NCBI GenBank assembly: GCA_022385755.1
Contig: MU278371.1
Span: forward strand, 85,123-149,122
From: Trametopsis cervina
Lineage: Eukaryota; Basidiomycota; Agaricomycetes; Polyporales; Irpicaceae
Length of the DNA: 64,000 nucleotides
Reading direction: 5' to 3'
Numbering within the stretch: position 1 is the stretch's first letter; each line of letters begins with the position of its first letter. A program made the position numbers and the translations under genes. The notes under the pieces were generated by a model. That model worked only from the letters and a program-made list of their open reading frames with translations, had not been told where the DNA came from and ran no database searches. Shown one piece after another: positions 3,649 through 37,307 of this stretch.

Positions 3649-4218
3649 ATGGCCCAATACGTTCTCGTACCTCAGCAGAGCTATCAAGCACCTAGAGCAT
3701 TCCAACGCCACAATTCTATCCTCTTTACTGCCCAGGGTGCTCCTGGTATCAACCTGCGCTATGCATGCGATGGGGCTCTGGAGCTCCTTGACGAACAAGA
3801 GGTGCAGCCGACCCTCAGTAACACAAGCGCCAGAATTACATTGCGTATCCTAGTAAGTCGACTCAGCGGGTCATCCGTCCGATGCTTTTGTTAATGCGCA
3901 TATGTAGTGGCCTGGATATCCCATGTGGACCTTTACGAACCTTGCCATCACCGACCATACCTACGTCGCTACCAACCTTAACATGAGACAGATAGCCCAC
4001 AACGTTGCAAGATGCATCCAGAGATTTTTTCAGGTGAGCTTTTCCTTGGTTCCGCATCCAGAAATATCCTTACCGAGCCGTACCAGGATATGGCCGGTGT
4101 GGGCGGGGAGCAGCCTCAGTGGATTACCGACATCATCGATTTCGATCGTCTGTATCTTACCGAGCTGATCCACGTCTCTCAAGGGAGCTGGCAGCCGATT
4201 CTGTACTACTTGCTGTAA
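3649..4218 (+). CDS. Orphan-family protein, copy A (W-P-G-Y / W-Q-P-[VI]-L family)
   Basis: Function unknown. I recognise no named domain. Three exons, 3649-3852, 3908-4033 and 4087-4218, are separated by phase-0 GT-AG introns of 55 and 53 nt and give 153 aa. Exon 1 contains SILFTAQGAPGINL and ends ITLRIL. Exon 2 opens exactly with WPGYPMW. Exon 3 starts DMAGV and ends in FDRLYLTELIHVSQGSWQPILYYLL. The same architecture, intron positions and motifs recur in the genes at 25.3 and 36.5 kb, which is what makes this a gene rather than a chance frame. There is no signal peptide, transmembrane helix or Cys pattern. The C-terminal aromatic and Leu-rich segment looks like a buried helix or strand. 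The gene lies in a gene-poor spacer and converges on the ABC transporter. Confidence 0.75.
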
Positions 4219-4623
4219 GCAGGGAGGTGTCACGATATAAGCCCTGATGTTCTGTTTTCACGGTCCATTTATGTGCCACGCTATCGTTGTGTAGTTTCGT
4301 ATGTGCTGCCGTCTCTCCCCGTTTTCTGTTACCATTGCCCATGATCGTAGCCTGCGTAACTTCTGGTTGTATGCTCTCGTTGTATGTGTTCATGTACTCA
4401 CTTGTTTCTATGAGAACCATTATGTTGTGCATTAAGGTGTCGGTTTGATGTTATATGGAAACGGCAATTTCGCCTTGTGACGCAAAATAACAACGCAGCA
4501 TGACGATATAACCTCTTACATCTAATTCTAATCCTGCCATACAAATCAAGACATGTCCTCTAATATCGACAATATTAGAGAAGTATAGAGGAACGTCCAC
4601 GACACCTTTCACTGATATCCATG
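4219..4623. other. Convergent 3' spacer
   Basis: Holds the 3' ends of copy A (+) and the ABC transporter (-). No additional gene is seen. Confidence 0.5.
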
Positions 4624-7600
4624 TCACAAAGACTCGGCCTTTGCCTTCGCCGCAGCTTCCAATTCGGCAAAGGTACCGCTCTTCAGACACATTCCACGGA
4701 ATATTCCCCCTTCCTTCTGAATGAGTTTGTATGGGGTATCGAACTCCGCCAATCTGCCTTTGTCTAGAACGATCAGGCGGTCATAATCAATGACAGTTCG
4801 CAAACGATGAGCGACTACAAAAGGAGGTCATGAATCGTTCGAGATATCAAAGATGTCTGCCCACCCGTCAGGAGTAATGAATCATTGAATTCTTCTCGTA
4901 TCGCTGCTTGAATTTTAGCATCGGTGGCAAAGTCGATGCTTGATGTCGCTTCATCCAAAACGATAATCGCACTGCGACGCAAAAGAGCGCGAGCCATGGC
5001 AATCAGCTGTCGCTGGCCTTGCGAGAAATTGGTTCCTCCTGGGGAGACTTGAGTGTCGAGAGTGACCGTGACCTTCGTGTCGGTCTCCGTCGCGCTGAGA
5101 GAGACGTTGGACGGCGCCAACGAACCTTCTCGCTCTACCTCGTGGACTGAACCGGGCCGAGACGGGGTTCGAGACGCATTCCTCGACGCTTCTCGGGAAG
5201 CTCTCTGTGATGTCAGCTGACTTTCGCTTAACATGTGCACACGGTACAAAACGTCAAGACATTCGCTATCGTCGTGTTCGCCTGGGCGACATCAGTACGG
5301 AGTGAGTAATTAAGATTACGAGCACATACCGAAGGGATCAAGATTGTCACGCAAAGTGCCAGAAAAGAGTGTGGCATCCTGTGGTATGGCTTAACAGAGC
5401 TGAAGCGAGTAATATAGATCGACTTACTTGGGGAATGAACGTCTAGGGAGGGAATATAAGTAAGTGCACCGAGCCATCGTTGTTGGGAACTCACAAGTCG
5501 TCCCCTTAAATCATGAAGACCGATCTTGGATATATCGATACCATCAATAACGATACGACCTGACGCGGGATCGACCTGAGCATGCACGTGATTGTTATAC
5601 GGGGGTTTGCTTCATGCACTGCACGAATACATACAAATCGTAAAATGCTCATTGCCAGCGTGGATTTCCCACTTCCTGTACGACCAAGCAGACCAATACG
5701 TTCTTTTGCCTTGAGCTGGAAGGAGACTTCGTGCAAGACTGGGGGGAGCTCGGGGGCATATCTGATGACAAGGTTTTCGACGGAGATCAAACTGTCAGAG
5801 TTCGAGCTGGTCGACGACGGCCAGTAAGCAGGTGGGCGATTCGATTCAATGACGGCGGGCGGCTCCTGGGGAAGATCGAGATATTCTACGACACGTTCGA
5901 CGGAGCTAGGGTGGGAAAGGCTTTAGTTATTGCATGCATATTGGGATGTGTGGTATACGTACTTGAGATCGAGCTCCAACGCTGTCCAGAATCGGCAAGC
6001 CCAATAGACACTTTCCGTGAAAGACATGGCCGAAGTAATGCACACACCAGCAAGACCAGCTCTCACATAGCCGGAAAGGGCAAACAGGGTGGTGATGCCC
6101 ACTCCGATAGCACCAAGTGCGTCGAAGTGCAGGAGCAGCCATCGATTGGTCATCCAGAAACTGTACCACATCTAGATGCAAGTTGAGACAGTGAAACGAT
6201 CAAAGTAACATTGCCTACCTTCGTAGTAAGGTCAACTTTACTGTTGTGGTTGTCAAGGAAGCGCTGTTCTGCTGAGAAGGCGCGCACTGTGACAATACCT
6301 TCCAGTAACTCCCCGAAGTTTGCGAAAATGGGGCTCCGCGTGTTAGACTCCATCCTGCGAAGATCTCTTCCGGTGTTCAGGTAGCCTATAGCTAGGCGAC
6401 GATAGACGAATCCAATAACCACAGCGGGGAATATGAACAGAGGGAAGACAACACTTGCGGCAGACATGTCAGCGAATAGGTCAAAATAGTTGGCCAGACA
6501 CCTACACGATGGTGATGACCGAAGCAGCGAAGTTGGCCAACGATGAGTTCACGGTTTGTAGTGTTCCAGACAACGAAGAGTCCACTGTTTCAACGTCCTT
6601 GCTGAAACGATTCAACATTCGGCCTATACAAGATTAGCTATGGTCGTTCATCGGGGAAGACAATCTTTTCGTACCCTGAGGTGTGACATCATGCCATCGC
6701 ATAGTTGCACGAACGACTCCAACAAGAAGCTGTTGGAAGAGCTTGCGAGATGCCCTTAGAGCCCCGGTATATTGTATGATTGCACTAAGGACGTTGAGAG
6801 TGGCCACACCCATGGCTATAGAAGCATAGACGCCAATGTAGAAATAAGGATGTTCTTGAGCACGAGGCCAGTCAATGCCGAAGGTCCCCTTGTCAAGCAA
6901 ACTGGGGTTTGACATCGTATAACGCATTGGGGAGAACCAGTGATCGAGAGGAACTTCATGCTCGGGACTCAACATGGTCCTGAATGACAAGGTGTTTGCA
7001 AATTCGGCGGTAGAGTTACCGTAGGCCTCCCCCCATATCTGGCAAGTAATCGGCAACAGAAGATATATCATGTACAGTACGGCTTACCTTGATCCATACT
7101 TTCTCTCCCACTGCGAGGCCTTGGTTGAATATAATAAATAACACCAATATTGACCATGTCCAATATGATCTGGTCGTGCATGTCAGTTCCAAATACATAT
7201 CGACTCCATTTGAGCTGCGGTGATACACTCACGAAGCTTTGAGGTATGTCTTGTAAATGTTCCATTTGACACTGCCTTCTTCACGTTTCTCCTCCTCTAT
7301 CAGCTTTCTTGGTTTCTTGACTGCTTCAACCGGGGCTGCTTCTCCTGTAGCCTCACCCTCGACAGCCGCCACATCAGCAGATACCACGGCTTCAGCCTGC
7401 TGATCTTGCTTCTGCGCTTCTGCGGACTCGTCATGGGTGATCTCTTCCAAAACTCCTCGCGCACGTAAATCCTTCAGGGTCCCTTGAGTGTCAATGCGAC
7501 CGTCTAGCATGCGGACGAGATAGAAGGTGCCGGGTAGCACGAGTTCTACGTGGTGGGTTACCAGAATCTAGGGCTAGGTGAGCAGGATCTTATGTTGGCG

Positions 7601-10600
7601 CGCCTCAGATTATTGACTTACAACTGTACGATGTTCCAGCAATGGTCCCCGAAGTAGCTTCTCGAACAGGAACCGGGCAGTGTGACTATCCTAAAAAACA
7701 ACATCTTTCAGTACGTTCCGACGATATATCATATCTAGGGCTCAACCAAGGTCAATAGACTGGGATAGAGAAGCTCTCCGCTACTCATAATTTGATAGTT
7801 TGAGCGTGTACCTCGGAGACCAGTCTTATGATTTAGTTCGGTTGAGAAAACTTACCACAGCACTGAGTGGGTCGTCCAGGAGGACATATTTCGTCGGCTA
7901 GATCGACGTGAGTGACAGTACTATGTGAGTAATAAGGACCACGAACAGCGTAGATTGCGCGTGCAAGCGCAACACTGAACTCTGAAGTTTAGCATTGCGC
8001 AACAAAAGGCCCGGAAATACTTACCGAGCTTTCTGCCCTCCCGACAAACTGACACCACTAAATGAACAGGTTAATAATGCCACACCGAACTCTGGAACAA
8101 CTTGTTCTCACCGAGCACCGATCTCTGTGTTATCACCGTCTTCAAGGATCTGGAGATCGGGCAACAGTGCACAGCACTCGACAACAGCATTGTACCTGTC
8201 TTCATCGTACGGGTAGCCAAATAGGATGTTATCCTTGATAGATTGATAGCGGAGCCAAGGCGACTGGGCTGCATATGAAATCGAATGCTGGAGCCCATGT
8301 TCATCGACATGAGACGGATTCTTCGACAGGATTAAGCGTCCGTCCAGCAGTGTCATCTCTCCAAGTAGGGCCATGAGGAGAGCTGTTTTACCGCTGGCAG
8401 TGGGACCAGTCACAACTGTCAATTCGCCCTCAGGGAACATGACGCTGATATCTGTGAGTTGAAAACGCCGTTCAGATGTTTCCGATCCTGCGAGAGATGC
8501 ATTATCGACGACTGTCGCTCCGTCATCTTCTGCGTTCACCTGGTTGGGGTCTGCGGCTTTTGGCTTATCCTGCGGCTCTTCAACCTCATTCCATTTGAAA
8601 GTGCCATGATTGATGCCCAGACCTGGTGCAATCTCCTCCGCGGCAGCAGTACTGCCCTGCCTCTTGAGGCTAGAGACATGCGCATCGACTTCATCTTCGT
8701 CAAGATAGGTCGAAATTCGATTGAGCGCGATACCAGTCTACATCCGTGCGTCATGGAGCCACCCTCGGTGTAGCGTACCGGTAAGACTCACCTGGAGAAT
8801 CTGAACAATCCACGAGGGAATAACGTTCAATGGCGCTCTGCAAAGGGACACTTATTATCACGAAGTATAAAAGAGCATATTCAATGTACCTTAGCATGTT
8901 GAACAACGCGATAGCCTATGCTGGATGTTAATTGTCGGACTTGACATGCGTAGGACAAGAACTCACGGTAAAGGCAGTCCCGACAGTCAATTGGTGTCCT
9001 TGCATGATGTAGGAGAAAAATGCCGTAACTGATACAGCTATAGGGGCAGTGGTCCAGATGAGAGAAAAGCAAATGGAGTTCGTGCGAGCTGGGTCAAGCG
9101 CACATGAGCTGACGATCCTGATATTTGTCGGAGTCCGGACGTACCCTTGATTAGCCACTTCAGTTCGACCTCACGTGCATCGAGGGCACGCTGAATCCAT
9201 CGGTCTTCCCAAGCAAAGAATTTGATGAATTTAACCTGGCAAGAACCGGCCGTGAGTATTATCGTACGAAAAGCTGTAGGGTATACATACGGCGGTGATC
9301 AGCTCATTCAGTACACCCATACGCTTGTCTCTGGCATTAGAGAGACCCTTATGGATGCGGACAGCACGTCGAGCAACGAGATTGTTCAAAGGCCAAAGAA
9401 TAAGCAAGACAAAAAAGCCAGCGAAGGCAGAGAGTCCAAGTAGCCTGCCAGAAGAATGAGTGGTGTATTCCCTCTATTCCTTTCGATACATACTGATATA
9501 GGAACATGCTTGCCACAATAATTTCGAAAGGGGCTGTGACCAAACTTCATAGATAGCCAAGACGGTGAAGCCGTACGTACGTACCACCATAAAGGAAATA
9601 TGCTCCGGAGACAATCTGTGCAACCTGTAGAGAGCATCATGCATTCAGTCGCACAAAACAAAGTGCCATAGAAACTAACCCTGTTGGCATCTCCGGCCAT
9701 CAAATTGACAATCTTTCCAACATCAGCTCCAGCTTTGGGATCATCGGCTTTGGGGTCTATCCGGGTCATTCAGCGTACTCATATCATCAAGTGCCGCGAT
9801 ACGCACCCTTTTTATCTTCCGCACTTTTACTCTTTGCGGCATCCTTATCCACAATTCCGGAAAAATCCTTCCGTTTGAGGGCTTTATCGTATATAGACGT
9901 CATGAGACTTGACCTGATCCTTGTTGCTGCTCTCCTTCCAAACCACAAATGTTGAACATCCGCCTCTGCTTTGGCCAAAGTTGATAGGAATGCCAAGAAC
10001 GCGTAAATGTACGCAAGCGAGATGCGGCGGATCCGTTCATCTTCGGTCTCGTCTTCGTGCACGTCCAGGGAGTCCAATATACGCTTGAGGAAGAACGGCC
10101 CCAAATAGTTGAAGACTATGCTGACATACGTAAGCACAAAATCCAAAATCAAGTCCATTGAGTTCGCTGCCCACAGCCGACGAAGGAGTGTAGCTCGCTT
10201 GATAGCGCTAAATTTCATGTATACGGGACGAGCCTGCATGCGTGGGCTGAGATTCCATACATCTGACTCTTGTAGCGTTGTGTTCGTGCCGAGCGTGATG
10301 AGTGGGCGCACCCAATGGAAGCTCACCCAGCCCCACAGAGATGTATAGTCTTCTGGTGAGACGGATTTCCCCTAGAACTAATGCGTTAAAGTATGTATCG
10401 GGGATGCTCGTCGTCACTCACAATATCTGCTGGAGACACACGGGCGCTCGGGAGGGCCAGCGGCATAGTGAATATGGTCACAAGAGATATTAAACCTGCG
10501 GCCAGATTCACAACCAGCGCCGCAACCACGATTCCCTCCGGTAGGGGGGTGCCATATACGTGGTTGTCAAACAGAATTCCTCCGAAAACGAGGGTATCCG

Positions 10601-11151
10601 AGAGAAGACGTGCGACATATAGAATAAGGAGGTCGCTTGGCGGAGTAGCAGTGGATTTGAGTATGGGCCTACAGCAAGCGTACAGCCACGAGACCGCAAT
10701 GAGATATGGAACCAGGGTGCTCCATACATCTCCGGATTCTGTGACGGCCAAATAAGAGCCCAAAGTGATCCATAGGAGTGTTCCCAAGAGCGCAGTAAGC
10801 GAGAGTACGAGCATGCGCCAGAGGGGAGGGTGCACGGGGACCTTGTACGACTCTGCCTTGTTCTCCTGTGCCAAAAGTGACTCTGCCTCCTGCAAGGTCA
10901 GGAAAGGTTTTATAGGTGACTTCAGAATTTTGACAACATGGGAGATTGGTGTAGGTCGCGGTGCGGCTAGCAGTAAAGCAGCAGCCACAATCGTCGCCGG
11001 TGCCAGAGCAGACCATGAGACACGAACGCAAGAGGAGGACAGGTCCAAGGGACTCGCTCCTTCGCACAAGCCTCCCATGCCAAGTTATCTCGTCGCGTGA
11101 GAGTTAGGGATAAGAGCGGTAAACGACGTGATGGGACATACGGGTAGACAT
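4624..11151 (-). CDS. ABCC/MRP-type full-size ABC transporter
   Basis: Exports or sequesters glutathione conjugates or other organic anions at the vacuolar or plasma membrane, by family. Many short exons give TMD0/TMD1 - NBD1 - TMD2 - NBD2, roughly 1,450 aa. NBD1 has Walker A GPTASGKT (about 8384-8407), signature LSGGQKAR (about 8030-8055) and Walker B YVLLDDP (about 7870-7895). NBD2 has Walker [10 protein letters not shown] (about 5660-5690), signature FSQGQRQL (about 5005-5030) and Walker [13 protein letters not shown] (about 4935-4970). An Asp replaces the catalytic Glu in NBD1 only, the asymmetry known for ABCC proteins. An Ala/Glu-rich linker lies at 7280-7420. The start is uncertain. 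ATG 11151 followed by an intron ending just before LCEGASPLD is in frame, while ATG 11078 needs no intron. The C-terminus is ...[10 protein letters not shown]. The pairing with a GST gene 3 kb away is compatible with detoxification but is probably coincidental. Confidence 0.9.
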
Positions 11152-11376
11152 GGCGCGCGAATCGTGACCGTGATGTCGCGAGCTGTTCGATAAGTCTAGC
11201 GCTGGCCAGAACAGCGCGGGTGTCTCAATATAAAAGAGAAACCCGACTGTGGTCGGGAGGATAATATATGCATGACATCGCTATTTATACAATTAAAAAC
11301 ATACAGAGCATTCCAGTATCGAGAACAGTTGACAGCGAGCGACAAGAACGAATAAAACGAAACGGAACAAACGGGC
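11152..11376. other. Spacer between Lon 3' end and ABC transporter 5' end
   Basis: Promoter of the ABC transporter. An A/T-rich TATA-like element lies at 11227-11236. It reads TATAAAAG on the + strand and CTTTTATA on the - strand, so its orientation is ambiguous. On the - strand it is about 80 bp upstream of the ATG at 11151. Confidence 0.4.
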
Positions 11377-14300
11377 TTAGAGCCTACTCTCCAGTAGCAC
11401 ATCCTTAGGACGCCATCCTAACGTGCCCTTACCGAATGCAGCTTCAAGGGCCTCCTCTACGGTGCGAACAAAAGCAAATTGCATAGCAGAACGGATCTCC
11501 GGAGGCACATCGTGTTCGACGTCCTTTCGGTTTGCCCATGGTAATATCACCTTAGTGATATTGGCACGGTGTGCACCGAGCACCTTTTCTTTGATACCTC
11601 CGACAGCACCAACACGTCCGCGTAGGGTGATCTTGCCTCGCCGTTAGACAATAATAACATAAGATGATATGCACGACTGACCTCTCCCGTCATGGCAATA
11701 TGAGTGGGGACGCATGCACCTGTCAGCAGCGACACGAACGCGCAGGCCTATCGAAAGATAAATATCAACAGAGCGAGCCAAAGACAGCGTTATACCACGT
11801 ACCATCGCGATACCAGCAGAAGGTCCATCTTTCTTCACAGCGCCCGATGGCAAATGGAGGTGGATATCGATACCATTTGGGTGCTTCAGAGCGTCTTGGG
11901 ATCGGGTGTTTGTGATACATAAATCATATGCGTGCGTCTTGACCCAACTCAGGGCAAGCTCCCCGCTCTCCTTGATGACCTCACCCAGACTCCCGGTAAG
12001 CTTGAGATGTCCACTTCCTGGCACAGCGATTGTTTCCACAGGCAGGATGCCTCCTTCGCCCATACCAGTAACCACAAGACCGTAAACGATACCACGTCGC
12101 TCTTCACGTTCACGTTCTTCGGCATCCCACCGAGCAATGCCCAATATATCTTCCAGTTCGCTAGCCTCGACAACCTCCTTATACTCCTTAGCAAGTTTAC
12201 CAGTACTGTCGACTTCGCTATCAAGATGCTCCGCCCATTCGACCGCCTTGTATCGTACGACGGCACCTATCGCACGTTCGAGGGATCGCACACCAGCTTC
12301 ACGTGTATAATGGGTCGCAATATGAAGCAGAGCAGAGTCTGTCAGTTCGAGATTCTGTGCAGCTAGACCGTTCGCCTTGAGTTGCTTGGGAAGCAGGAAC
12401 TGACGCGCAATATGCATCTTTTCACTGTAAGTGTATCCCGAAAGATTGACGATTTCGGTACGGTCTAGAAGCGGAGCTGAGATGGTATCGAGGGTGTTCG
12501 ATGTGCAAATGAACAGCACTTGACTGAGGTCGATTGGAACGTTTATATAATGATCCTACCAATGATAATGAGAAAACGCGGTGATTTCAATGAATTCCGA
12601 GGAATGACCCACATTGAAAGCATGGTTCTGTTCTGGATCAAGAACCTCGAGAAGTGCAGCGGCAGGATCCCCGTGGAAGTTATTCTGGCCGATCTTGTCT
12701 ATTTCATCACTGCAAAATGTAAGACACGACAAATTGCCCACAACTGATGAACTGACAGTAATATCACAGGGTCCGGACGACCTGATTTACGCAGAGCTTG
12801 CACGATCATACCAGGCCCGCTCGCAACATACGTACGGCGGTGGCCTCTTATCTCCGCTTCGTCACGAACACCCCCGAGCGAGATTCGCTGGAATGGCCTA
12901 CCAAGGGATCGAGCGATAGATTGTCCAAGTGAGGTTTTACCAGTACCAGGCGGGCCGACAAATCTGTATAGAATCGTCACAAGACTGCTCGACGAGCTCT
13001 GGGAGTGAAACGTACAGTAATATGGGACCTTTCACCACAGACCCGCGAGGTTTCTGCGCGGTTGTGCCAGCCGCTGACATCTCTGGCACCTCGGAGGCTG
13101 CTTGGACCTTGCTGGTCGCGGCATTGGCGTCTTGTTCGGCTTGCAGAGCCTTGAGACGAACGACGGCGAGATACTCGATTAACCTCTTCTTGATCTTCTC
13201 TAAGCCATAGTGGTCTGCATCGAGTTGTTGTCGTGCATTCTTCAAAAAAGCGCGGTCACGAAGTGTCTCGAACGACGTAGTAGGTGTCGTATTAGAGGAG
13301 GTTGGCCATGGTACTGCTACTAGCCATTCAAGCTGTAGAGGGTGGCATCAAAATTTACAATCCCATCGCGTTGAGGAAACGTCAACTCACATAGTTACGA
13401 ATCACACCGTATTCCACACTGCCTTGTGGTATACGTTTGAGTCGTTTCCACTCCCGGACCGCCATCTTACGCTCCTCGCTATCTTTCGCCATAGCCTCGA
13501 TCTTCGCCTTCACATCAGCCATCTCCTCCACCTCATTTTGTTGATCGTCGTCCAGTTCCGAGACTGAGCCAGAGCCGGGACGCCCATCCTCTCCTATATT
13601 GGACGTTTGACTTATGCCCGACGACGGCGTGCGGGTTAGGTTATTGAGCTCACGCTGGATGGCAGCGAGTTGTTGCCTCAAGAAAAACTCCTTCTGCTGC
13701 TTCGAAAGGGACTCGTCAACGGACTGTGCAATACGCTTCGACACCTCCGAGATAGACGCTTGCTTGACGAAGAGCGCAGTTGCACGGGCGAGACGGTCAT
13801 CAGGATCGGATGCCGACAAGAACTCTGTAGAGGTATTGAAGTAAGCCTATATCCAATATTTGAATCTCGCCCCACATTGTATAATAGTGTTTAACGGACA
13901 CAGCCTAAATAGGCATATGAATTACTGCCGACATCGAACCGTGCTTCTGCTATACCAGCACCCTGGCTAACCCCAGAAGAAGAGCATGCAGAGCGCCCTC
14001 GGCAAAGGCTTACAACCATGAAGAAAGCAGGCCTTCAACGTATGTGTGGAGGGGTACTCACCAAGTTTGTCCGCATACTCCGCATTGGTGCTTGACAATA
14101 TCACATCCGCCATCCAAGCAGCTCGAACATGTGATACCTCCTCCACCAGGGCAGCAACCTTGCTGTATGATTCGCGCTTGACCTGTTGTGTTGTGTCTCT
14201 AGCAAGCTGGTTTAGGAGTTTCAATGCAGCCGCCTTGAACTTCACCACATTCTCCGCGGTGGGAACACCGTCGGTCGGCGGGTATTCTACACGCAAATGG

Positions 14301-22150: not shown

Positions 22151-22237
22151 GTGATTAGGTGAAATCGGGAGAGCGCCGTCATACAACCGTGCGGACCGCT
22201 TTTCTATCTGCGTCTCCTACTACCTTCCGGGCGACAG

Positions 22238-24250: not shown

Positions 24251-25341
24251 AACGGAGCGCCCGGTAAGCATCGGAGCGCTGCCTCGATCTTACTTTCCAA
24301 CTCGGTCGTGTCTTCCATCTATACTTCTTTCCCACTACTTCCTAGCCACGAATGTTCTCGCTCGCCACTTCCAGCAGACGATATCTCGAGCCACTAGCTA
24401 AGACGGGAAATCATCCCAGACCGCGTTGCTTTCTAGTGAGACTTTCGGCAAGCCTGCATCGTTTTGCCGCATAGTGAGTGTCCGATTATGGGTCCTCTAT
24501 GCCAGTATCAGCCACAGCAACTCCTTGGGTATGATGTGCCCTTCAGATTCAATCCGAAGGTGCTTCAACAGAAGTTTTAGATAACAGTCTTCGGTCACGT
24601 CGTGCTCTGACGATACTGAGCTCGTCGGCTGGAGTGTGGAGGAACGCGGGCGCAGCACCATACGTACCCCCGTGCACGTCTCACGGCGCTAGTCACCATA
24701 CGACTTTTGATATGCCATTATGCACAAATCTTGTATGCACTTTTCTTATTTTTGACCATACGGAATGTTGACTGCGATCTAGTATTCCTTCATCTTCCGG
24801 CATTCTCCGTAGGCTTCCTACTCCCCGAAGATGCTTGTATAACTGGAACTTTGCGAGTTTAATACTGAACGTCAGCTACCCGCAGTTCTGAGTTAGCGGA
24901 ATCCTGTGCTCCTCGCTAGCGCGAAGTACAGATTGACTGCAGATGTGGACGTGACGACTGTCCACAAGATGTCCGACCGGCTGGTCAGGCTACCTTGCTC
25001 AAGGTTAGCATCGTTCCGCACGCTTTAAATTTCATGCGTTCGACATTCAACCATGCCGAGAGCCATCGACTCGTAAGTCAACCCTCTTGGTGACAATGTG
25101 GAATTTCTAGCAGCGGTATTCCTCCTCCGTGGCTAGACAACACAGATGGTCAACTGTTTAGTCGCCTTCAGACAACGCCGCCACTTGCTGGAAAGATGGC
25201 ATTGGCTCGAATCCATATAACCACCTACGCAGCTTGAGATAGAGGCAACTCAGCTCCAGCCTACTCACCGCGTTCACTTCAGCACTCAACACTTCTACTT
25301 CGGTATGGCCTCGACGAATGTAAGATATATTCCACGGTTTG

Positions 25342-25995
25342 ATGGCCCACTCACTGGCGGCTCACTATTCACCAAAGGAACAATATCACTCGTTTATAAA
25401 CGTACAAGGGGCTTATACCGGAACTGTGGTAGTGCCACAACTGGTTTATCATACAGCACCAGAACACCGTCCGTTGGATGCCATAAGGTTTCGCCAAAAC
25501 GGAGTACTTGGTATCAAGCTAGCGGATGCGCTCACTCCCAATTTCAATCACCTGGATCGTGCAGGGGAGCAAGTGGAGTTGAGCCCTACGATGGCAAAGA
25601 AAGTCACGCTGCGTATCAATGTATGTGATCCCTCAGTCTAGAGGAACGGCGCCGACTAATCCCGTCCTACACTATATCGATAGTGGCCAGGTTACGATAG
25701 TTGGAGTGATACCGTCCATTTATTCGACCACGGCTACGACGCGAACCCGATTACGAGGGCAAAGCTGGCTTATGAGATCGCAAGGAAAGTCAGGACATGT
25801 TTGCAGGTGAGAGCTTAAAACCTTTTTTATGTAAAGTGTCTAACATTTTGTCGCCAGGACTTAGCCACAATGAGATCCCGAGAGAACTCGCACGACTGGT
25901 GGGCTGCAAGGTTTCCTATCGAACGTCTTGTGCTTCTTGAGGTGAGGCATGTGTCTGCGGGTTCCTGGCAGCCTGTACTCGCGGCTTTTGTTTAG
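25342..25995 (+). CDS. Orphan-family protein, copy B (W-P-G-Y / W-Q-P-[VI]-L family)
   Basis: Function unknown. Three exons, 25342-25620, 25684-25806 and 25858-25995, with phase-0 GT-AG introns of 63 and 51 nt, give 178-179 aa. Exon 1 contains AIRFRQNGVLGIKLADAL and ends VTLRIN. Exon 2 starts WPGYDSW and ends RTCLQ. Exon 3 starts DLATMRS, contains SHDWWAARF and ends ERLVLLEVRHVSAGSWQPVLAAFV. Intron positions match copies A and C to the residue. A different start at 25305 (MASTN, then an intron to 25377) is also possible. I prefer 25342 because its acceptor-free reading is simpler. There is no signal peptide or membrane helix. The gene sits at the end of the gene-poor, repeat-bearing stretch. 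Confidence 0.72.
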
Positions 25996-26603
25996 AGTGA
26001 AGGCTGTGGTTCCCTTCACCCGACCCCTTCATATTCTACCCACAGACACTCCTATTTGTATCTACGATTGTGACTGGCATGATTGAAGTGTCCCACTAGA
26101 CTATGGTCACCATCCATTGAACTTTAACTGTAGCATAGATTACCTGTAGCATGATTATAGTATCTATTCCGGAATGTGAGCATATTATTTCGCCACGGAT
26201 ATTAGCCACAGGAGCACATGTGTTAGCCCACCGTATCCTTGGTAGGTGTCATTAGAATCAAGTAATCGTACATTGTAGCAGGACCCGTTCTAAATCCTAC
26301 GTAGAGCCGCACAACAGAACGCTTTGGCTACATAGCAAAGTGCATAACGGCATAGAAGGGATATACTGCTCGCAGGAGCCTTTGAGAACGCGGAGAGGGT
26401 CTCGAGATCGCACGGCAAGAGTACAAGTCAGGGATATCATAAGGCGGAGCAGAGTTAGAGACTCGACTGGGTGGCTAAGGGAAACTGCGTGGGTAGGCAT
26501 GGGGATTCATGGACATGCGGCGATCATGAGGTCTTCTGCCGCGACTAACGCAGGAAACCCAGAGCTGCGCCTCAAATAGGGTTACGGGATGATATTCCTG
26601 CCA
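25996..26603. other. Convergent spacer, no gene seen
   Basis: Lies between the 3' end of copy B (+) and the 3' end of the Cid1-like gene (-). AT-rich, with no long or protein-like frame and no repeat worth naming. Confidence 0.5.
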
Positions 26604-29600
26604 CTAGGAGATGCTACTGGGGTCATCCTCGTTGGCGATCAGGGCCCCATGTGGCTGGATCTCGCCTGCAGCCTTGTGCGCTTTGGAATCCATTCGTGCA
26701 GATTGGTCAACTGTCTCAAGGGTTGAAGAATCGAGCTTGACCAAAGGCTGCTCAAATGACTCGTTATGTGTTGGAGAAGGTGGGGATGTTGAAACTGGAG
26801 ATATCGAAAGAGCATATTGAGAGCTTGCGCACGACATGGGTGGGGATCCGCTAGCTGAGGAAACCGATGCAGAAGGGGAGAAGCTGCGGGACTGGTCTGT
26901 TCTGGTGTTGAGGTACCCTCTTGACCGCGAATCGGAGGGTCTCTCTTTGGATCGTGGTGGTGACGGTGATGTCGACCTTGACTGGGATGAGGGTCGTGAG
27001 TAGGGGGGAGAGATGTCGGATGAAGGGAATCGGCCAGATGGCGGAGGAGTAGGTGCTATGATAGTGGATTGCGAATGTGAATGTGAGTGTGATGTTAGTC
27101 GAGTATAAGGTAAAGATACATTGGCCTGAGACGGTGTTGTTGACAGAGGGGAGATAGTACCGGAATCAGGCGTGTGGATATGTCGAGGGATGATGCGCGA
27201 CTGTGGTAAGGTACTATCGAACCTGGGATTGCCTTCCAGGCGTCCCAAGTTAGGTAATCTGGAAACTATGGGTGGCGAGGGTTCAGCCCCTAATGCGCGT
27301 GCCATACGTTCCCGCAGCGGTGTGGTCTCGTAAAAGACCCCGTCTGTTCTGTGTTGACTATGTTGAGGTGATTGAGGGAGCATCTGCGTCCTAGAAGGGT
27401 ATACTGATATCGGTGTAACGATAGTAGGCAAAGCAGAAATAGAATATCGATTGAATGGCCGAGGTGGACCTGCAGGACCCGAAGTAGACCTGCGTGGCGG
27501 TTCCATCCGTGGAGGGGGAACAAAATTGTCCTGTCGCGATCTGGGCTGACTCGGAGAAGGCCCAGCGTCGGAGTTGAAGTAAGGCACTTTAGCAGCTGGC
27601 CTCCCTCGTTGCTTAGAGGACCATCGTTGCTCAGTTATCCCTCCTTCTGCTGCGGAGTTTTCTGTCCGCATACGCTGATGAGAGTTCGAGGGGTCGTTCA
27701 CGGCAGCTCTGTTCCAGTACTGCGAAGACTGCATGGTGGCCTGCCTCATAGGACGATGTAGACCGCGTTCCTCAGTGAAAGACCGCACAGAACGAGCGTC
27801 TTCAGAGTCCGCAATAGATCGTATATCGTCCTCGTCTGTGAGTATCTCGCTGTTGGCGGAAGACCATGTCCCATCAGGCTCTCTCTGCCGTGCATCAGTG
27901 GAAGAGGTGGCTATTGTTAGGCTATGTCCCAGTCTATCCTCAAAAGCAGACCGATCAGCTTCGGGCGCCTCGGGCGGAGGAGGACTTGTCCACTTCGAGC
28001 GTTTCGGCCCCATGTGCTCGGGATGTGCAGCTGTTATTCGCACAGGAGTCGGCGGAACTGTACTGGGTACATGATGCACTTCAGGGGGTGATAATCGGTC
28101 TGGCTCAGGCGCGCCAGATGGGCGCATGGGGTTACTACCAATGGCGTAAGGAGTTTGCGCGGCCTTTGGCACAGGCGAAAGACGAGGAGGGGCAAATTGT
28201 GACCATGAAGGCGAAGCGTGGAGCAATTCCTCGTCCTTTCTTTCTTCGCATAGCTGGGCGAGGGCCACAACGGCGCGTTCTGGTCGCGCTGCCAATATCT
28301 TAGATGCTCGCATGAACTCTCCTCGGATCTGCCGATGGTCAGGAAGAAAATCTAACATTAGCTGAAACAGACTTACGGTGTAAAGTCCGTCTCTAGTGAC
28401 ACATCGTGACACATTAAAATCAGTCTCGAAGGGATCCTAGAAACGACATGTTACACATTTCCGCTGACAGCACGCAATCTCCTTACCTCTATACATAGGC
28501 GATTCCTCTCCCTTGCGGTTCCTTTGTCGGGCTGTGCGTGTCCGTCAGTACCAAATCACTGTTATGAAACGAAACCCATACATCATTATGCCATCCCTTG
28601 CTCTCCTTGGAGAGAAGTCCAGCCCTGATTGATGCAACGCTAGTATTATATAAGAAATCTTTAGAATAGAATCTGAAAAAGTCCAGCAAGCTATATGGTA
28701 TTGGTTCAGCTCTCGATACGAATCATGCCTGCATGAACTCACAGCTCGGCAACGCTCTCCGTATTAGAGGACTGCCATCGTTCTCTGAGCAGATTGATAT
28801 CATCGAAAAACCTAGGGAATATCAGACGGGAGTGATGGGAGAATCGGAGACCACGCGCACCAAACATTGTACCCATTAAGATGAGTTTCCTCCTGATTAC
28901 ATTATAAGCGCAGGTCAGATCTCCATACAACGAGAACCTACTGGTGATATAGGCCGCATTGGCGGCATTTGCTGAAGATTTGGTAGTACAGGAGGATTTT
29001 TGACATGAACAAGGAAATATATGACGAGGAGGACGTAGCCATAGGAAGATAGAGTGCCTTTGTATGGGGAGTTAATCTTTCTAAAGAGGAATGAGCATCG
29101 AAGCGCTGCTAATAAGAATCATCGTACCGTCGTTTGCACCATACTTTCACTATACAAGGCATAGTGGCGTCAGCGTTCGAGACATTTCGCGGCACGGATA
29201 GAAACACGTACGAAATAGAACCATCGTGCGTACTCTCGCGGGGTCTATCATAGCGTAACACATCAAAAGACGCGTATTTTCGAGAGCAAGTCTGTTCTCA
29301 AAACCGATATCACACGCGATGCCAAACGGTAACCCAGGCTTCGGGTCGAGCGAAAGCTTGACGATCGGTATTCGCGCATGAGGTAATGGCTTGATGTGGA
29401 ATTTCGTCTCTGTAAATACCAGTGAGCTTCAAGAAAGTGCTCGTATCAAATTATCGTACCCCTTGCAAAGAGATCACCCAGCATATTGACCAAGGCCGTC
29501 GCAGGTAGGCGATCCTCTGAATCAATAAGACAGCACAAATCCATGTCTGTCACAAGTCAGTAAGACGATCCAAGTGTGCGACACTGATTTTACTCACCAG

Positions 29601-30003
29601 AATTTCTCAGACTGAAGCCGTTTGCTGTACTGCCAAAAGATAGTAGACGACTGTCCGGCTCAATGGTACGAATCAGCCTCTCCAACAGCTTTCTCACATC
29701 CTCCTTGATTGCAAGTTCCTCTGGCGTAGGCAACAGTTGAACAACAAAGTCGTATAGACATCTTGAGAGGTCGGCCGCGAAGCGTTGCTTCGAAACCATT
29801 GGTCTTCGTTGTGTCGGGTTGAGTTGTGATGAGCTCTGGCTCTGCGCGTTTGCGATGGTATGTAGATGAGTCGCTGCCATCGTCAATCCGTCTTCGAGCC
29901 TTTGATGGAGATCCTGCCTCCGAGAGCGTATGTGCCGAGTGAACAAGGGCGAGTCGACGAGGAGACGATGATCAAGAGCACTCTCACAAGGGAAAGCACT
30001 CAT
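26604..30003 (-). CDS. Cid1/Trf4-type terminal nucleotidyltransferase (poly(A)/poly(U) polymerase family)
   Basis: Adds A or U residues to RNA 3' ends, by family. Exon 1 (30003-29598) ends in FGSTANGFSLRNS, the helical-turn Gly-Ser motif of the pol-beta fold. After an intron the next exon begins D-M-D-LCCLID, the metal-binding DxD. The third Asp is in GIACDIGFENRLAL. The PAP-associated region follows (VRTMVLFLSVWAKRR, SSYGYVLLVIYFL), then the nucleotide-recognition hallmark DPFETDFNVSRCVTRDGLY joined across an intron to IRGEFMRASKIL. Beyond this is a Ser/Pro-rich, probably disordered tail of about 550 aa (28330-26604), far longer than in Cid1. The ATG at 30003 is the first in frame. An upstream exon cannot be excluded. 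Whether it adds A or U cannot be told, because the discriminating His region is not clear. It is followed upstream on the same strand by PAN3. Confidence 0.85.
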
Positions 30004-31201
30004 GGGCGATGCAATGGACCCATATATGGGAATCTTGACGATTAGACGCCCCAATATAGGGAGCCGCTATTATGTGAAATCCTAGTATTTGGCCATACGG
30101 CTCTTAATTCCGAAAGAGAGCACTGTCTTGCGTCTTATATTCTTTGCAACAGCCAAATATACTGATCAGGCGAAGGTGACTGCCTTGCATTCGTGGATTG
30201 TGCTCAAGTGCCTGCCGACCGGCAGACCGGCGGCCACCCGCGGTGGCCAAAATTCTCAGCGTGCCGAAATCGCGCTCTTTGCCCCTAAGCCTCAAACAGT
30301 TGAGCACTAAGCCCAACGTGTGAGGTCGTTTCAAGTTCACACAAGGCAGCATATACCTAGGAGTTAGCATTGCATGTCCCTCGGGTGTCAAATATGCAGC
30401 TCTTGTTGCACACTCAGTCTGTAGCTCGGCATGTCGGGGTACATATCACTCATGAACTTTCAGTATCTCGTTGTCGCAGCTCGACCCGGGTCGTCTCTGG
30501 TCTCTGAGACACTGCGCCAATACAAAAATCACGTGGCAGCAGAAGATGTTTCACGTACGTGGGTCCTCTGTCACTGCGTGCTGTTCTCTTGAGATTGCAG
30601 CCTATTACAGCGCACGGTGAGGTACAACCGCATGGCGGAAGCTTGCGAATAACCCCATTGTTTGGTTGAGAGTTTCGACACCCCCCACGCAGTATTCAGG
30701 AAGAGTAAACGCGGGCTGGAGTGTGGACGAGGCAGAAGTACACCCGCTTGCATTGCTATACGGTCCGATAAGGAGGCAAGTGGTGAGGAATATAACTGGA
30801 AGCATCACCTCTCAATCAGTTGTGTCATGTGAACAACTCACGTACATATCCGATTCGTTTGAGACCCTGTACCCTTGTCTTCCGTAGCGTCCCATGAGAC
30901 TGAATTGTGACATAACCAACGAGTCCAGAGCGTGTTTCGCAATCGTCTGAGAACGAATGTCAAAGCAGAAATAGACTGAGCCACAGATCACGAGCTGTGA
31001 AGATAGCGTTATCTGCATATCTCGACCTTGATCTACTCTCACCCATGAGAATATGTGGGGAATCGTACCTCACCCATCAAGGTGACGAAGACTCCGTGCC
31101 TGCGAGGACGAAAGAAGAACACTGTTTTATTCTTTTCCGAGTCTTTTTCTGATTCTAAACTATTTTGTCCAATGAGAGGTTTGGCATTCCGTAGCTCTCG
31201 T
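30004..31201. other. Spacer between PAN3 and the Cid1-like gene
   Basis: 1.2 kb. On the - strand two hydrophobic open stretches, about 31040-30812 and 30808-30605 (containing MLPVIFLTTCLLIGPYSNAS), could be parts of an unrecognised small secreted or membrane gene. I could not find a start, splice set or second supporting motif. Otherwise it holds the PAN3 3' region and the promoter of the Cid1-like gene. Confidence 0.3.
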
Positions 31202-33781
31202 TCAACGTAATGTCCCGAGTGATGTAGACAGCTCACTGCGCATCTGTCAATAACATACAACGACCCGTTGCGACAAAGTGCGCACCCAAATGCTGTTTCA
31301 ATGCAAGATTTAATCTCGCGATAGCTGACGACGAGACAGCTTTGTTCATCGCGAGAGACGAGCATGATACGTTCGTCCACACCAGCATCAAGCTACAGGG
31401 AATAAATCAATTTTGCCTATAGTCACCTAGGGATTAACGTACCTTGTTGAGGCAGGTCAAAACATGTCCAAGATTCACGACTGGATTGCCATGCTCATCA
31501 ACCTGGTGGAAGACATAGTCACGGAACAACTTGATGATATATCTATCACCCGTCTCTGACCACCGCGGATCGCGTGCGAACTCGGGTCGTTCGTTGATGA
31601 AGCCAAACTTGCACAGGAGACGTACAAGGCGACCGTTTTCAAGCTCGCTCATAAGCTCACTTTCAAGACGATCCGTAGCACTACAGGACTATACGTTAGT
31701 TAGATATTATAGGACGATAAGAGTAGAGCTACCTCTGGAACTCGTCGAACTCCGCAAGAGTCTGCGAAGCCAACTTTTCGCATAGATGACGAATATTCTG
31801 CACGGAGACCAATTCAGCTCTCCGCCTAACATGACGCATAAGGGACCGCTAACCTTTAAGTGGTTTGGCTTTGCGACCAAATACAGAGCTACATTCTTGA
31901 GTTCTTGGGAGTAGTGACGGTTGAGAGTCTCCAACGACTTGGGTAAGTTATTGGCAGCCGATGTGTTATTACAACAGAGTGTGAATATCAGTCTGCCGAA
32001 CATGGTCAAATCCTCTTGTTGCAATACCCCAACATCTTGGCGCGCTTCATGGGTTAAGATGTCGACAATACCGCACGAACCTACGCGGATCCTGCAAGCG
32101 AGGTCATAACATGCTATCGGACTACATCGTCAAACATACCTGTTCGTCCCGGTGACTACAATTTTCGTGACATCAATAATGCGCATGGCCAGGCCCGCGT
32201 CGTGTACGGCTTTCATTGCGCTCGCGATCTGAACAATGTACGACCATATGGTACGCTCAGGGATACGGTTACTCTGGGCTTGCAGTCTTCCATTATGATA
32301 CTGAGGCGCCTTGGGTCTGAGATGGGCTTCGAAAAGCGTCTGTGAGTTCGGATGGTAATCGTAGACAACCACCAAAGCTATCGGGAAAGGGCGAGATATC
32401 AGTGCCAAGGAGCTACATGGGGACAATGGACGAACAGTTGTCATTGAAAGCGCGTGTAGTGAATGCCTCCTTGACCAGAACGAGGTTCGGATGCTTGATC
32501 TGGGACCACGCTTCAATACCACTGAACGCCGACTGGCTGGTCAATCGGAAGCCTGAATGAGAGTTAACGTTTACAGGCCTGGATGAGACCAAAACCTACT
32601 CTCTATACGTCTCAGGGCGTAGGCAGCACCGTCGGAAGAGTTGATCGCCTTGTAGACAGTTGAGTACCAGTTACCAAATTTACGCCGATCTCCGATCACG
32701 GGTTCCAGTGGGACGAGCGAGTGATAGCCTTGAGTTTCTTCAGGAAGCGACAATCCCGGAGGGGGGGCAGCGTGGACCGCTTCCGACCGTTTCTGTAATT
32801 CCTCCCGCAGAGCATCTGAAACGAAATAACGTGACTGCATACTATCCGGGCGAGGGTGTGTGTAGAGATGGTAATTCAACTGGACAAAAGTCAACAATCC
32901 GTTAAGCCGAAGCCGAAGATCTACACACAGGCTGACGCGTGAACGCATGTTGGGTCGGATAAAAGACGTCCATGGGAGTCGCACCGTCATACTCCAGCGG
33001 CTGGCCATCACCTTGGTCGAAATTATCCAGCTGCGTTACCACTGTTAACAGAGATACTGACAAATAAGTTCGGGGACTTACTGTCTGGAACCGATTTGCT
33101 AGATAATCCATGGAAAAGGGGCCGACGGACTCTGAGTAGCCTTGAGAATCATATCCATCGTCGTATTGGTAATCAGAGTCATTTGACAGTGTTGAGCTAG
33201 TCTTCTGTTACTTGAGTCACATTCTATGTAATCAATGAACTTACGATGATATTACAGGCTGCGACGCTGCAACAGCGGCAGCAGGTATAGGACTTCCAGG
33301 GTTCTTCGGGACAAATACAGGAGCGTTAACAGCCTGTGCCGGTAACGCGGCGGCCGGTGTAGGCGAATCCGGTCTGCTCGGGTGTAAGCAAATAGTAGAT
33401 GGAATGCAGGAAGAGTCTCACAAAGGAGGAGAAGGATCACGCTTAACAAGAATAAGTCAGCCATACGGAGTTGAATTGAGGGGGAATATCGCGTACTGAA
33501 GGGTGATAATAGATACAACCTTTATCTTGAAACTTACACGAGCTAAGTTAATGTTCAGCTCTACAACAAATGCGACAGAATGGCTCGTCTGCACCCGTAT
33601 ATCAATATATTCCTACACTGGCGTTGGGTTGAATCTGACATCGGTCATCAACACGCGCGTATCGGTGAGTATAGACCGACCTACCCTTTCTCGGTTGTTT
33701 AGGGCTTGAGGGTTCTGAATGGGAGATTGAAGGAGCGACAATCTTCACCGCAGACGAAGATGGCCTCGAGAAAAAGGCCAT
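31202..33781 (-). CDS. PAN3: PAN2-PAN3 deadenylase regulatory subunit PAN3
   Basis: Recruits the PAN2 nuclease to poly(A)-binding protein for the first phase of mRNA deadenylation. Exon 1 starts [17 protein letters not shown]. Three short exons then build the CCCH finger as [17 protein letters not shown], followed by IYYHPS. A PAM2-like segment [14 protein letters not shown] lies near 33300. The pseudokinase domain starts [13 protein letters not shown] and contains [21 protein letters not shown] and [20 protein letters not shown] later block is [19 protein letters not shown]. The C-terminal knob has [36 protein letters not shown] and [19 protein letters not shown]. The last exon is short. The preferred reading ends [13 protein letters not shown] after an intron from about 31288 to 31227, and reading through instead gives a less typical tail. 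It is divergent from TFIIE-beta across only 147 bp. Confidence 0.93.
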
Positions 33782-33928
33782 CCTGTGGCCAGAAGGATGA
33801 CGGCTGCTCTCAAGAGCGAATGAGTTATAAGCGCGTATAGTCTCGGGGTTGTGACAGCTTGTGACTTTGGGATTACACCGCGCGCAGTGCTGCTTTTGTT
33901 GCAAGGAGCAGCTTTCATCTCGACGACC
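33782..33928. promoter_or_regulatory. Compact bidirectional promoter, PAN3 / TFIIE-beta
   Basis: Only 147 bp separate the PAN3 ATG (33781, -) from the TFIIE-beta ATG (33929, +), so both leaders and both core promoters must fit here or overlap the genes. No TATA box is visible. A GC-rich stretch, CACCGCGCGCAG, lies near 33877. Confidence 0.5.
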
Positions 33929-34960
33929 ATGTCTGCCCTTGCTAAAGATGCAGCTGCATTCAAGAGTGCTCTCGGACGGCAAGACTATACCTCCTGGCAC
34001 TCACAGCCGCCACCTCTTCAACCTGCTGCCTCGGATATGCAGGATGCTTCGGGTTCAAGCAAGAAGAAGAAGCGACAGAAGTCTAGTTAGTGCCCGTCTG
34101 TGGTAGCAGCTGCCAGACGTTGACAGAATCCGTGTAGATGTCGTTTACTCGCAGCCGGCGGATACAGGCACTGGAAGCAATGTCAATACGCAGCTCCTGT
34201 ACGCTGTAAATCACCTCAAGTCGAATGGCAACCCTATGCGCCTTCAGGATCTGGCCATAATCACGAATACCCCTCTAGACACAGACATGGTCCTCCTGGA
34301 AAAGTTCAAGGCTCACGATCGGGTGATCCACGATCCAAGGACTGACCTCTACTCGTATAAAGTACGTTCGATACCGTCCTCGCCGTTCATGGCGCCTGAT
34401 AGAGCATTTCCAGCACGACTTCGACGTCCGGAACAAGGCATCACTACTGACGGAGATCAAGAAGCACACGAAAAATGGTGGTGGTCTTTCCGTCAGGACG
34501 TTGAAGGAGAGTTGGAAAGAGGCACCTCAAGCGATAGAGGAGTTGGAAAAGGAGGGTGAGGTGTATGTCACACGGACCTTGAAGGACGGTCAGCTGCGAA
34601 TGGTTTTTTGGAATGAAATAAGACCAGACGAAGAAGGTGAAGGGACACAGGTGGAGAAAGGTCTGTCAGCTGCCCTCGTTGAATTGAATCATTATGCGCG
34701 TGTTTCTGGACTAACCCTTGTCAGAATTCCTTGACCTATGGCACTCCTTGCAAGTTCCGAACGAAGTCGACCTATTGAAGCAACTTGCCAACGAGGGTCT
34801 ACAGGCCACAGCGGCAGAGACTCTTGCTCCCAAAGGACCCGGTACCAAGAAGAAGGGAAAGAAAACAGCAACTAAGCAGCGTCAGATACGTCTGACCAAC
34901 ACGCACTTGAAAGGGACTATTGATCTGTCTAAGGACTATGTGGCCCCTGGGAAGTCCTAG
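33929..34960 (+). CDS. TFA2: Transcription initiation factor TFIIE subunit beta
   Basis: Works with TFIIE-alpha to recruit TFIIH and stabilise the open RNA polymerase II promoter complex. Exons are 33929-34085, 34138-34361, 34414-34660 and 34725-34960, all GT-AG, giving about 287 aa. A basic patch (SSKKKKRQKS) precedes the first winged helix (NTQLLYAVNHLKSNGNPM, TNTPLDTDMVLLEKFKAH, DPRTDLYSYK). The second winged helix follows (NKASLLTEIKKHTKNGGGLS, RTLKESWKEAPQAIEELE, LRMVFWNE). The C-terminal region has EFLDLWHSLQVPNEVDLLKQL and a Lys-rich segment, as in the family. The start is the first ATG after the divergent promoter. Confidence 0.94.
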
Positions 34961-36456
34961 TCGTGCGTTCTCATACTGCAGAATCCCTGTTACTGAGGAC
35001 TATTGTATCATACCTGTTATTTAGTGTTGAATGTATTTGGAGCAACATGATTATCATCGCTAGGCACGCGCTCACGGCGTGAATGTTATCTTCCGCCGGT
35101 TCGAATCGCCTCCGTAATTCCGAAATACCAAAGGTCCGCCACATCCGACTTCGATCCCTTGCAACCTCTACCGATAGTTATACCGTCGCATGGTGTGGCG
35201 GCTGACGTATAGCAGGGCCGCTTCCAGTTTCCGAGCAACTAAATGGTGCCGTGCAGAGGTGTGCTCTGCTGCACGCCCGCTGTCACGAGGAATGGATCGA
35301 GTCATCGGCTAGCAGCAATACACACCTTTCAAGGGACCAAGACTTCGCTGTCATGTGAGCCCCGAGGCGATCTTCGTTAGTAAGTCGTCTGATTCTGGAT
35401 AGCCCTACCTAGCTCATAGCATGTCCGTCTTATGCTTTGCAGTGGACCCTTGGAATGTCTGACTGCCTCACTTGGTGGCAATATCCAATATAACGATTGC
35501 AGGGGCGACTCTGAGCTCTAAGGAGACGGGCGATTGATCGACCGGGCATGAATAAATGATCGACACAAATATGGGGGCTCTGGAACATGATGTTAAGGTA
35601 ACGCAAACATACTACCTAACACAAGATATGTCTTCATGGTTGTAATTATCTCAAACTTTGCCATGATTTAGATATAACGAAGGTATGAAATCCGAATATG
35701 GACTGCACCGCTTTGCACGCCACTGGACATTCAAAAACAATACCAGTATCTGCCTATTCTTGCAGGGGAGGGCATTCAGATCCTCGGTTATATATCGATC
35801 AGATACAGGTGTGCTTTCATGAGTGGCAGATCTGCCCAACATCTCTTCACTGTATTGATTTATTCTTGCACAAAGCAATTGGATATTCCACAGGGACGTC
35901 CGCGCTCGCAGCCCTGGGACGAGCAAAGCCTCCGTATGAACAATAATCGGATTATGATTTAAGATCTCTCCTTTGTCTTTCATCTATAATGTGTTTTTTC
36001 AGGGTATCACAATCTCACGGCCGATCACCAATGAACTGACCCGCAGGTAGTTGTTGAGTTTAAGCGCCTCTCGCAAAGCTCTCACTGAGTGTGTGGTGCG
36101 GACATTCCTTTATTTGTGTCCCGTCACTTATGGGGACCATCAGAGACCCTCAAGTACACACAACGTCAAGTTCCTAGCAACCAGTTCGTAGTAAATTAGT
36201 GGAGGGACTTCCTGTTGGGCAAGTCGTCGAAACCCTTTCTGCCCGTGTATAGCTAGCTCGCTTTTTCCATGCGGCGCCTGTCCTAGCATCGCCTCAACCC
36301 GATTTCCACCTTCTCGATTGTCTAACAGGAATTCCGGCTTACAACCGTCTACCCAGCAGATTAATACGATATGTGGCACATCTCATTGAATATACTAAGC
36401 AAGTTACCAGCTACTATCTGTAGTGACACGACGTAGCACACCCTGCCCAGGGTCCA
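34961..36456. other. 1.5-kb spacer, no gene seen
   Basis: Contains the TFIIE-beta 3' region and the promoter of orphan-family copy C. No protein-like frame was found. A GGTTCGAATCG sequence at 35098-35108 resembles a tRNA B box, but no tRNA fold can be drawn around it. Confidence 0.45.
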
Positions 36457-37307
36457 ATGGCACAAGGCATGGGCCGTGGGCCTTCCCGGCACTACAAAGG
36501 TCAGCGTTGGTGGAACACCTTTCCTTCAGACCTCCGGCCTCTACTTGACTCTCCTGCTCCCGATCTTCCGATACCTCACGGCATCAAGCCTTCCTACAAG
36601 ATGGTGCGTGCTCCAAATGCTATGGACATCTTGACATGGTACAGACCCTAATTAATTCCCCAAGAACTCCTCCTCTGCGGATTACCACACTTTCATGGAT
36701 TATACGGCTGCCATCCCAGGCATCATCGTCCCCCAGCAGGTGCATAGAGAAGGCCCCCAGCAGAGTACCACACCTCAGCCAATTCGCTTCATGACAAACC
36801 ACATCCCCGGAATCAGCTTGAAGATGGCCCTAGCTGGAAACTTCAACGGGCTCGTGAACGCCAATTCGACCGTCCCGTATAACCAAGGCAAAACTTCGAT
36901 TTCCTTCTACATACATGTGAGATTTATAGCATGCATGGTGTACGCCACATACTGACAGTGCCTATGTTCTTCTTTGCCAGTGGCCTGGATATCCACCCAT
37001 AAGGAAGGATTTCAACATGCCTGACAAGATGAATGGCCCTTTGACCTACAAGATATTAGCCGCCCTGACAGCGCGCATCGTACAGTATAGCTTAGCGGTA
37101 CGCCCCAACGATATGTTCAACCGCACGCGCGGAGCGTATACTGATCTTTACTCATCCGTTCAGGAATTGGCCCGGCCTAGCGTGCATTCCTCGGAGAATA
37201 GCAGCGACTGGTGGGCGTCCACTATATCCTTCGATTCGTTGTGCTTGCTCGAACTACGCTGCATCGCTGCGGGGTTATGGCAGCCGGTTCTTTATCGCGT
37301 CGTTTAA
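36457..37307 (+). CDS. Orphan-family protein, copy C (W-P-G-Y / W-Q-P-[VI]-L family)
   Basis: Function unknown. Four exons, 36457-36603, 36665-36916, 36981-37097 and 37164-37307, with phase-0 GT-AG introns, give 219 aa, the longest family member. Exon 1 (49 aa) is an N-terminal extension rich in Arg, Trp and Pro that copies A and B lack. Exon 2 contains PIRFMTNHIPGISLKMALAG and ends ISFYIH. Exon 3 opens WPGYPPI. Exon 4 starts ELARPS, has SSDWWASTISF and ends SLCLLELRCIAAGLWQPVLYRVV. The last intron (66 nt) is a multiple of three and could be retained, but its position matches the introns of the two paralogues. No signal peptide or membrane helix is seen. Confidence 0.75.

Follow-up and report, generated by a model that had tools for sequence, protein, structure and literature searches.

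The closest described counterpart of the genes analysed here is the Pfam domain DUF6741 (PF20526), whose library description assigns no function and which, under either name, occurs in no paper found by literature search. The genes, termed A, B and C, lie on the forward strand of a 64,000-nucleotide stretch of the Trametopsis cervina genome (contig MU278371.1, positions 85,123 to 149,122), referred to as the window. The initial annotation had presented them as an orphan family of three members without a named domain. Neither part of this description holds: A, B and C are almost certainly single-domain members of DUF6741 that share the history of that family, and at least 34 gene models of the family were found in the T. 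cervina genome, a number to be read as a lower bound. Placement in a well-described domain family, named initially as a result that would overturn the idea, is thereby given in name and not in function. The name DUF6741 was known already; added here are a strongly expanded set of short copies and a longer, conserved Agaricomycete form. For the explanation as a whole, namely membership, history and a role as regulators acting on nucleic acid, we estimate a probability of roughly 0.5.

Membership was assessed against the Pfam cut-off of 27 bits, which was passed by A (28.8 bits) and B (31.2 bits); C alone scored 15.8 bits (E 0.016), below the cut-off, and is linked to DUF6741 solely via its relatives. 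A profile of 78 rows built without T. cervina sequences gave 150.6, 167.7 and 135.1 bits for A, B and C, compared with a top score of 6.3 bits among 900 shuffled proteins, and was matched at E ≤ 1 by 7 of the 670 open reading frames of the window (counted as reading frames, not as genes). DUF6741 itself was matched at E ≤ 1 by 43 of the 48 members of sequence set A2, and at E ≤ 10 by 46 of the 48 members of set A6, which consists mainly of conserved relatives plus five short copies; two relatives from Phanerochaete sordida carry the UniRef label "DUF6741 domain-containing". With E ≤ 10 as the threshold, A, B and C matched no other Pfam domain. The domain has its motifs in common with the three genes, and the strongest DUF6741 gene of T. 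cervina (C2:1752012-1752803) is likewise compatible with a phase-0 intron preceding W-P-G-Y.

The gene plan that had been proposed for the window, with an exon starting at W-P-G-Y, a C-terminal W-Q-P motif and two phase-0 introns, was borne out in all three genes. The pattern AG|TGG-CCN-GGN-TAY occurs three times on the forward strand (3908, 25684, 36981), as does TGG-CAR-CCN-[AG]TN-Leu (4189, 25966, 37278), and neither occurs on the reverse strand; the spacing between the two sites is 281 bases in A, 282 in B and 297 in C. In 200 first-order Markov windows of the same dinucleotide make-up, the mean numbers of sites were 0.01 and 0.04, and no pairs were obtained. As both motifs occur only at these genes and the controls gave no pair, the common plan is genuine and not due to chance. 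The two introns have GT..AG borders and lengths of 51-66 bases in 3 of 3 genes. Protein A (153 residues) is identical to the T. cervina database protein P0001. Among 12 further database relatives, five (P0003, P0018, P0031, P0038, P0042) read unbroken across both junctions, from contigs of 976-1853 bases that may or may not be derived from RNA, and seven (P0024, P0028, P0037, P0039, P0045, P0049, P0052) read into, or end at, an intron-like stretch; the unbroken sequences lend both introns independent, if partial, support.

Of the gene extents given in the initial annotation, that of A was retained, and the starts of B (25342) and C (36457) were revised (Table 1), resulting in proteins of 172 and 171 residues. 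For B, translation probably starts at 25305, with MASTN joined to EQYHSF via an extra intron. For C, the start is most likely the ATG at 36601, directly followed by an intron; the spliced start MNSSSADYHTFMDY aligns with MDSSAHSYHTFMDY of the relative P0003. With the alternative start at 36457, splicing is from the same donor and the protein gains 48 residues, relatives of which were not searched for. A candidate ATG|GT start with an in-frame acceptor was found in 12 of 34 members, on C1, C4, C11, C15, C17, C24 and C33, versus 61 of 2000 random window positions, a control that differs from real gene starts in composition and searched length. NCBI models agree with such a start for two of the twelve, P0004 (MANVHSHTF) and P0013 (MAHHTF). 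P0035, the publicly available model of C, is 84 residues long and diverges from the corrected model near the end of exon 2, and none of 52 database relatives is a full-length entry for B. Public models of genes of this kind can therefore be wrong.

Table 1. Coordinates of genes A, B and C within the window.
Feature	Position	Strand	Remarks
Gene A exon 1	3649..3852	+	Splicing; protein match to P0001
Gene A intron 1	3853..3907	+	Phase 0, GTAAGT..TAG, 55 bases
Gene A exon 2	3908..4033	+	W-P-G-Y start
Gene A intron 2	4034..4086	+	Phase 0, GTGAGC..CAG, 53 bases
Gene A exon 3	4087..4218	+	D-M-A start, contains W-Q-P-I-L
Gene B probable first coding exon (MASTN)	25305..25319	+	Same join as annotated paralogue P0002 (MTSTN-EQYHSF)
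Gene B intron 0	25320..25377	+	58 bases; encloses ATG 25342 of the earlier model
Gene B exon 2	25378..25620	+	Spliced model
Gene B exon 3	25684..25806	+	W-P-G-Y start
Gene B last exon	25858..25995	+	D-L-A start, contains W-Q-P-V-L
Gene B, stretch alike to copy C24:75194-75874	25164..25996	+	87.8% identity, 842 columns; ends 1 base past the B stop
Gene C probable start codon	36601..36603	+	Sole codon of its coding exon, ATG|GTGCGT
Gene C intron 0	36604..36664	+	61 bases, phase 0
Gene C exon 2	36665..36916	+	Spliced model
Gene C exon 3	36981..37097	+	W-P-G-Y start
Gene C last exon	37164..37307	+	E-L-A start, contains W-Q-P-V-L

Family members in the T. cervina genome, the only one in which copies were counted, were located with B, the conserved protein P0083 from Fomitopsis, A, C and one C17 member as queries; the stretches retrieved were then searched for splice models, with phase-0 introns and a middle exon starting with W or x-[P/H/Q]-G as requirements. 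Since the search required these features, the intron fit of the 34 models is a matter of consistency, not an independent test. C24 carries nine models, C17 seven and C1 a tandem array of four, and the other 14 are spread over nine further contigs. The proposed dispersal is borne out in part: the family has members on 11 more contigs, and A, B and C themselves belong to a loose cluster of nine genes (C24:75,194-164,488) that is cut by the window. The middle exon starts with WPGY in 28 models, WQGY in three and other residues in three, and W-Q-P is present in the last exon of 31. The [DE]-[LM]-A start described for the third exon is present in A, B and C and is a mere tendency family-wide (EM in 7 members, DL in 4, DM in 3, EL in 2, others in 18). 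One further family match, at C17:232419-232688, contains three internal stops and has no gene model; a first reading as a decayed copy was withdrawn, as an intron may account for the stops, and the match is listed as unmodelled only.

In other fungi, the domain occurs in two forms. The 52 database relatives comprise proteins from T. cervina (8), Cytidiella melzeri (7), Irpex rosettiformis (6), I. lacteus (5), Phlebia brevispora (4), Phanerochaete sordida (3) and Hermanssonia (1), six from Trametes, Epithele, Hygrophoropsis and Russula, and 12 further proteins. A wider search gave 420 matches, of which 120 were listed, and revealed a conserved protein in many Agaricomycetes, with lengths of 162-485 residues among the matches listed. 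Many models of this longer form have about 400 residues (e.g. P0138 from Hermanssonia, 423; P0129 from Pleurotus, 410), with an N-terminal part rich in Ser, Thr, Pro, Gln and Asn, and the domain at the C-terminus; in all six long proteins examined, these residues make up 43-46% of the N-terminal part and 24-32% of the core. T. cervina has a conserved relative of its own at C9:327072-327665, with 60-80% identity per exon to P0083; the match breaks at about the same junctions, and introns were modelled there too.

For a comparison of the cores, the 34 short copies were set against 45 conserved sequences. The residues P-Q, F, G, W-P-G-Y, A..A, W, L-x-L, G and W-Q are each present in 94-100% of the short copies, and the long relatives have the same C-terminal domain with the same WPGY and WQ core. 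Unlike the short copies, the long relatives carry an S-D-R-R-R-Y block, conserved charged positions and, in many models, the low-complexity N-terminal part; at the block and the charged positions, A, B and C have mostly gaps or other residues. Ten positions are Lys or Arg in at least 90% of the conserved sequences, whereas the short copies keep Lys or Arg there in 26% on average, and the core has a median net charge of +3, compared with +7 in the conserved sequences.

The history of the family was reconstructed in a midpoint-rooted tree of 74 of 75 rows (P0024 was dropped), in which the long branches of C2:1752k, P0042, C15:545k and P0050 make their places unsure. A groups with Cytidiella and Irpex lacteus proteins (support 99/98), and C with Cytidiella, two Irpex proteins and P0003 (100/100), so that both lineages look older than the genus. 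The lineage-specific duplication suggested initially fits B, which falls within a clade of eight T. cervina sequences only (100/95). The label T. cervina changes 15 times on the tree, versus 25 times in shuffles, which points to both old and recent duplication. Most of the named short relatives found come from a small number of Polyporales genera (Trametopsis, Cytidiella, Irpex, Phlebia, Phanerochaete, Hermanssonia), which is therefore where, by these sequence comparisons, the short copies multiplied; some of this predates the divergence of the genera, and some took place within T. cervina. A further subfamily of eight members (C17:70-89 kb, C17:218-230 kb, C2:1284 kb) contains only T. cervina sequences in the tree (100/99); a search with a single sequence as query, which is insensitive, gave six candidates and as relative only T. 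cervina's own protein.

In eight pairs, the ratio of nonsynonymous to synonymous substitution rates (dN/dS) was 0.41-0.77 and thus below 1 throughout. The short copies evolve fast under weak purifying selection, and the initial view of a fast-evolving, expanded family is upheld. This relaxed constraint would also be expected if the short copies were mostly redundant duplicates, contributing little function themselves and subject to drift and decay; the unmodelled C17 match with its three, possibly intronic, stops would fit, as would the gene-sized DNA likeness seen in two pairs. There, the copied or converted unit looks as if it consisted of the gene and an upstream stretch: the likeness between B and its C24 copy ends just past the stop codon (Table 1), and that between C24:162 kb and C11:179 kb four bases past it. 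In three other comparisons (C17/C2, C24/C4, C1 array) the likeness extends beyond the gene. We consider such neutral turnover rather unlikely, as the A and C lineages kept frames, introns and scaffold through the divergence of the Irpicaceae genera, and the structure of A was predicted with very high confidence.

Structure prediction yielded confident models for both A and P0083, with mean predicted local distance difference test (pLDDT) values of 95.7 and 93.1. Neither model had a significant fold match in the PDB by Foldseek, and no convincing sequence relative was found among solved structures (three and four chains at E ≤ 10), the top match being a Vps25 winged-helix chain (E 0.011 over 43 columns). 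In a second look at the PDB, both models were best covered, over 92-105 residues, by B3-type DNA-binding domains (LlaJI.R1-N, 6c5d; At1g16640, 1yel; NgoAVII, 4rd5; BfiI-C, 3zi5; LEC2, 6j9c), which we take to have the B3/pseudobarrel fold in common. They account for five of the ten listed rows for A (6c5d, 1yel, 4rd5, 4rdm, 6j9c; 4rd5 and 4rdm being one protein) and for ranks 1-3 of the 50 listed for P0083 (6c5d, 1yel, 3zi5). We propose that the long protein may be a regulator whose C-terminal domain would bind nucleic acid via a B3-like barrel with the conserved basic positions. The short copies appear to retain the scaffold (PQ, WPGY, A..A, W, LxL, G, WQ) with most conserved charged surface positions changed, which suggests that they may act within the cell as single-domain regulators whose partners have diversified. 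Taken by itself, the nucleic-acid-binding role read from the models is tentative and somewhat doubtful. The same models could be read as a ubiquitin-like (beta-grasp) protein-binding module, with the copies as adaptors, e.g. in ubiquitin-related recognition: the C-terminal half has the predicted order strand-strand-helix-strand-strand, ubiquitin, SUMO, ISG15 or UBX entries make up many of the PDB rows for the conserved model, and among the viral matches is one annotated as E3 ubiquitin-protein ligase LAP (E 0.07). We regard this as unlikely.

With the P0083 model as sole query, fold matches were also obtained to proteins of Pithovirus LCPAC401 (A0A481ZAI3; E 7.9e-6, template-modelling score 0.57/0.59 over 160 columns), a tailed phage (A0A6J5RRW7; E 6.9e-4) and Klosneuvirus (A0A1V0SI02; E 3.5e-3). 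These proteins are listed as uncharacterised and have at most 18% identity; with root-mean-square deviations of 5.7 Å for the Pithovirus and 17.8 Å for the phage protein, the overlay is loose. No sequence relatives were confirmed in IMG/VR viral contigs (12 pattern stretches for set A6, 4 for set A5), and none was convincing in phages by tblastn (three records, best E 0.3) or in PHROGs (19 families, best E 0.015).

The two viral matches below E 0.001, from pithovirus and phage, would suit short copies that serve as fast-changing recognition or conflict proteins, in self/non-self discrimination or against viruses. So would the concentration of named short relatives in few genera, the uneven copy number, the dN/dS values at the upper end of the range, and the occurrence of copies in clusters and tandem arrays on C24, C1 and C17. 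The lack of a second Pfam domain in A, B and C, the absence of any dN/dS above 1 in the eight pairs, and the fact that the viral matches stem from the conserved relative's model alone and hit proteins without known function make this quite unlikely. At the far end of speculation, and less likely still, DUF6741 might represent an unrecognised nucleic-acid- or partner-binding fold of mushroom fungi, giant viruses and tailed phages, with polypore spin-offs for recognition or gene control, i.e. one conserved fungal regulator next to dozens of fast-changing single-domain proteins in one polypore group. That the short copies are secreted effector-like proteins, as their small size (153-172 residues), fast change and expansion could suggest, is highly improbable, since the starts MAQYVLVPQQSYQ, MASTNEQYHSF and MNSSSADYHTF have no hydrophobic leader (no signal-peptide program was applied) and hydropathy means reveal no strong hydrophobic segment in A, B or C (19-residue maxima 0.59, 0.92 and 1.33).

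As to the surroundings of the genes, the housekeeping character ascribed to their neighbours was supported: in a scan of 10 of the 14 window open reading frames of at least 200 residues, six passed a Pfam cut-off, with matches to an ABC transporter, Lon, an importin-beta-like protein, eIF2-gamma, and RasGEF and its N-terminal part. An Rfam scan of the window gave no match. DUF6699 (PF20415) resembles DUF6741 in being a small fungal domain with many copies and no function assigned in Pfam, and was named in no paper found by literature search; the idea that the two are one family found no support in profile comparison (hhalign probability 0.7-0.8%, E 0.07-0.08 for a single comparison) and was set aside. 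It has 14 matches elsewhere in the T. cervina genome, with four on C32, four on C37 and others on contigs including C5.

With these results, an unstudied Pfam domain gains a conserved Agaricomycete form with a confidently predicted fold and, from a single group of wood-rotting fungi, many short copies that change fast. The conserved gene is amenable to experiments in laboratory mushrooms.
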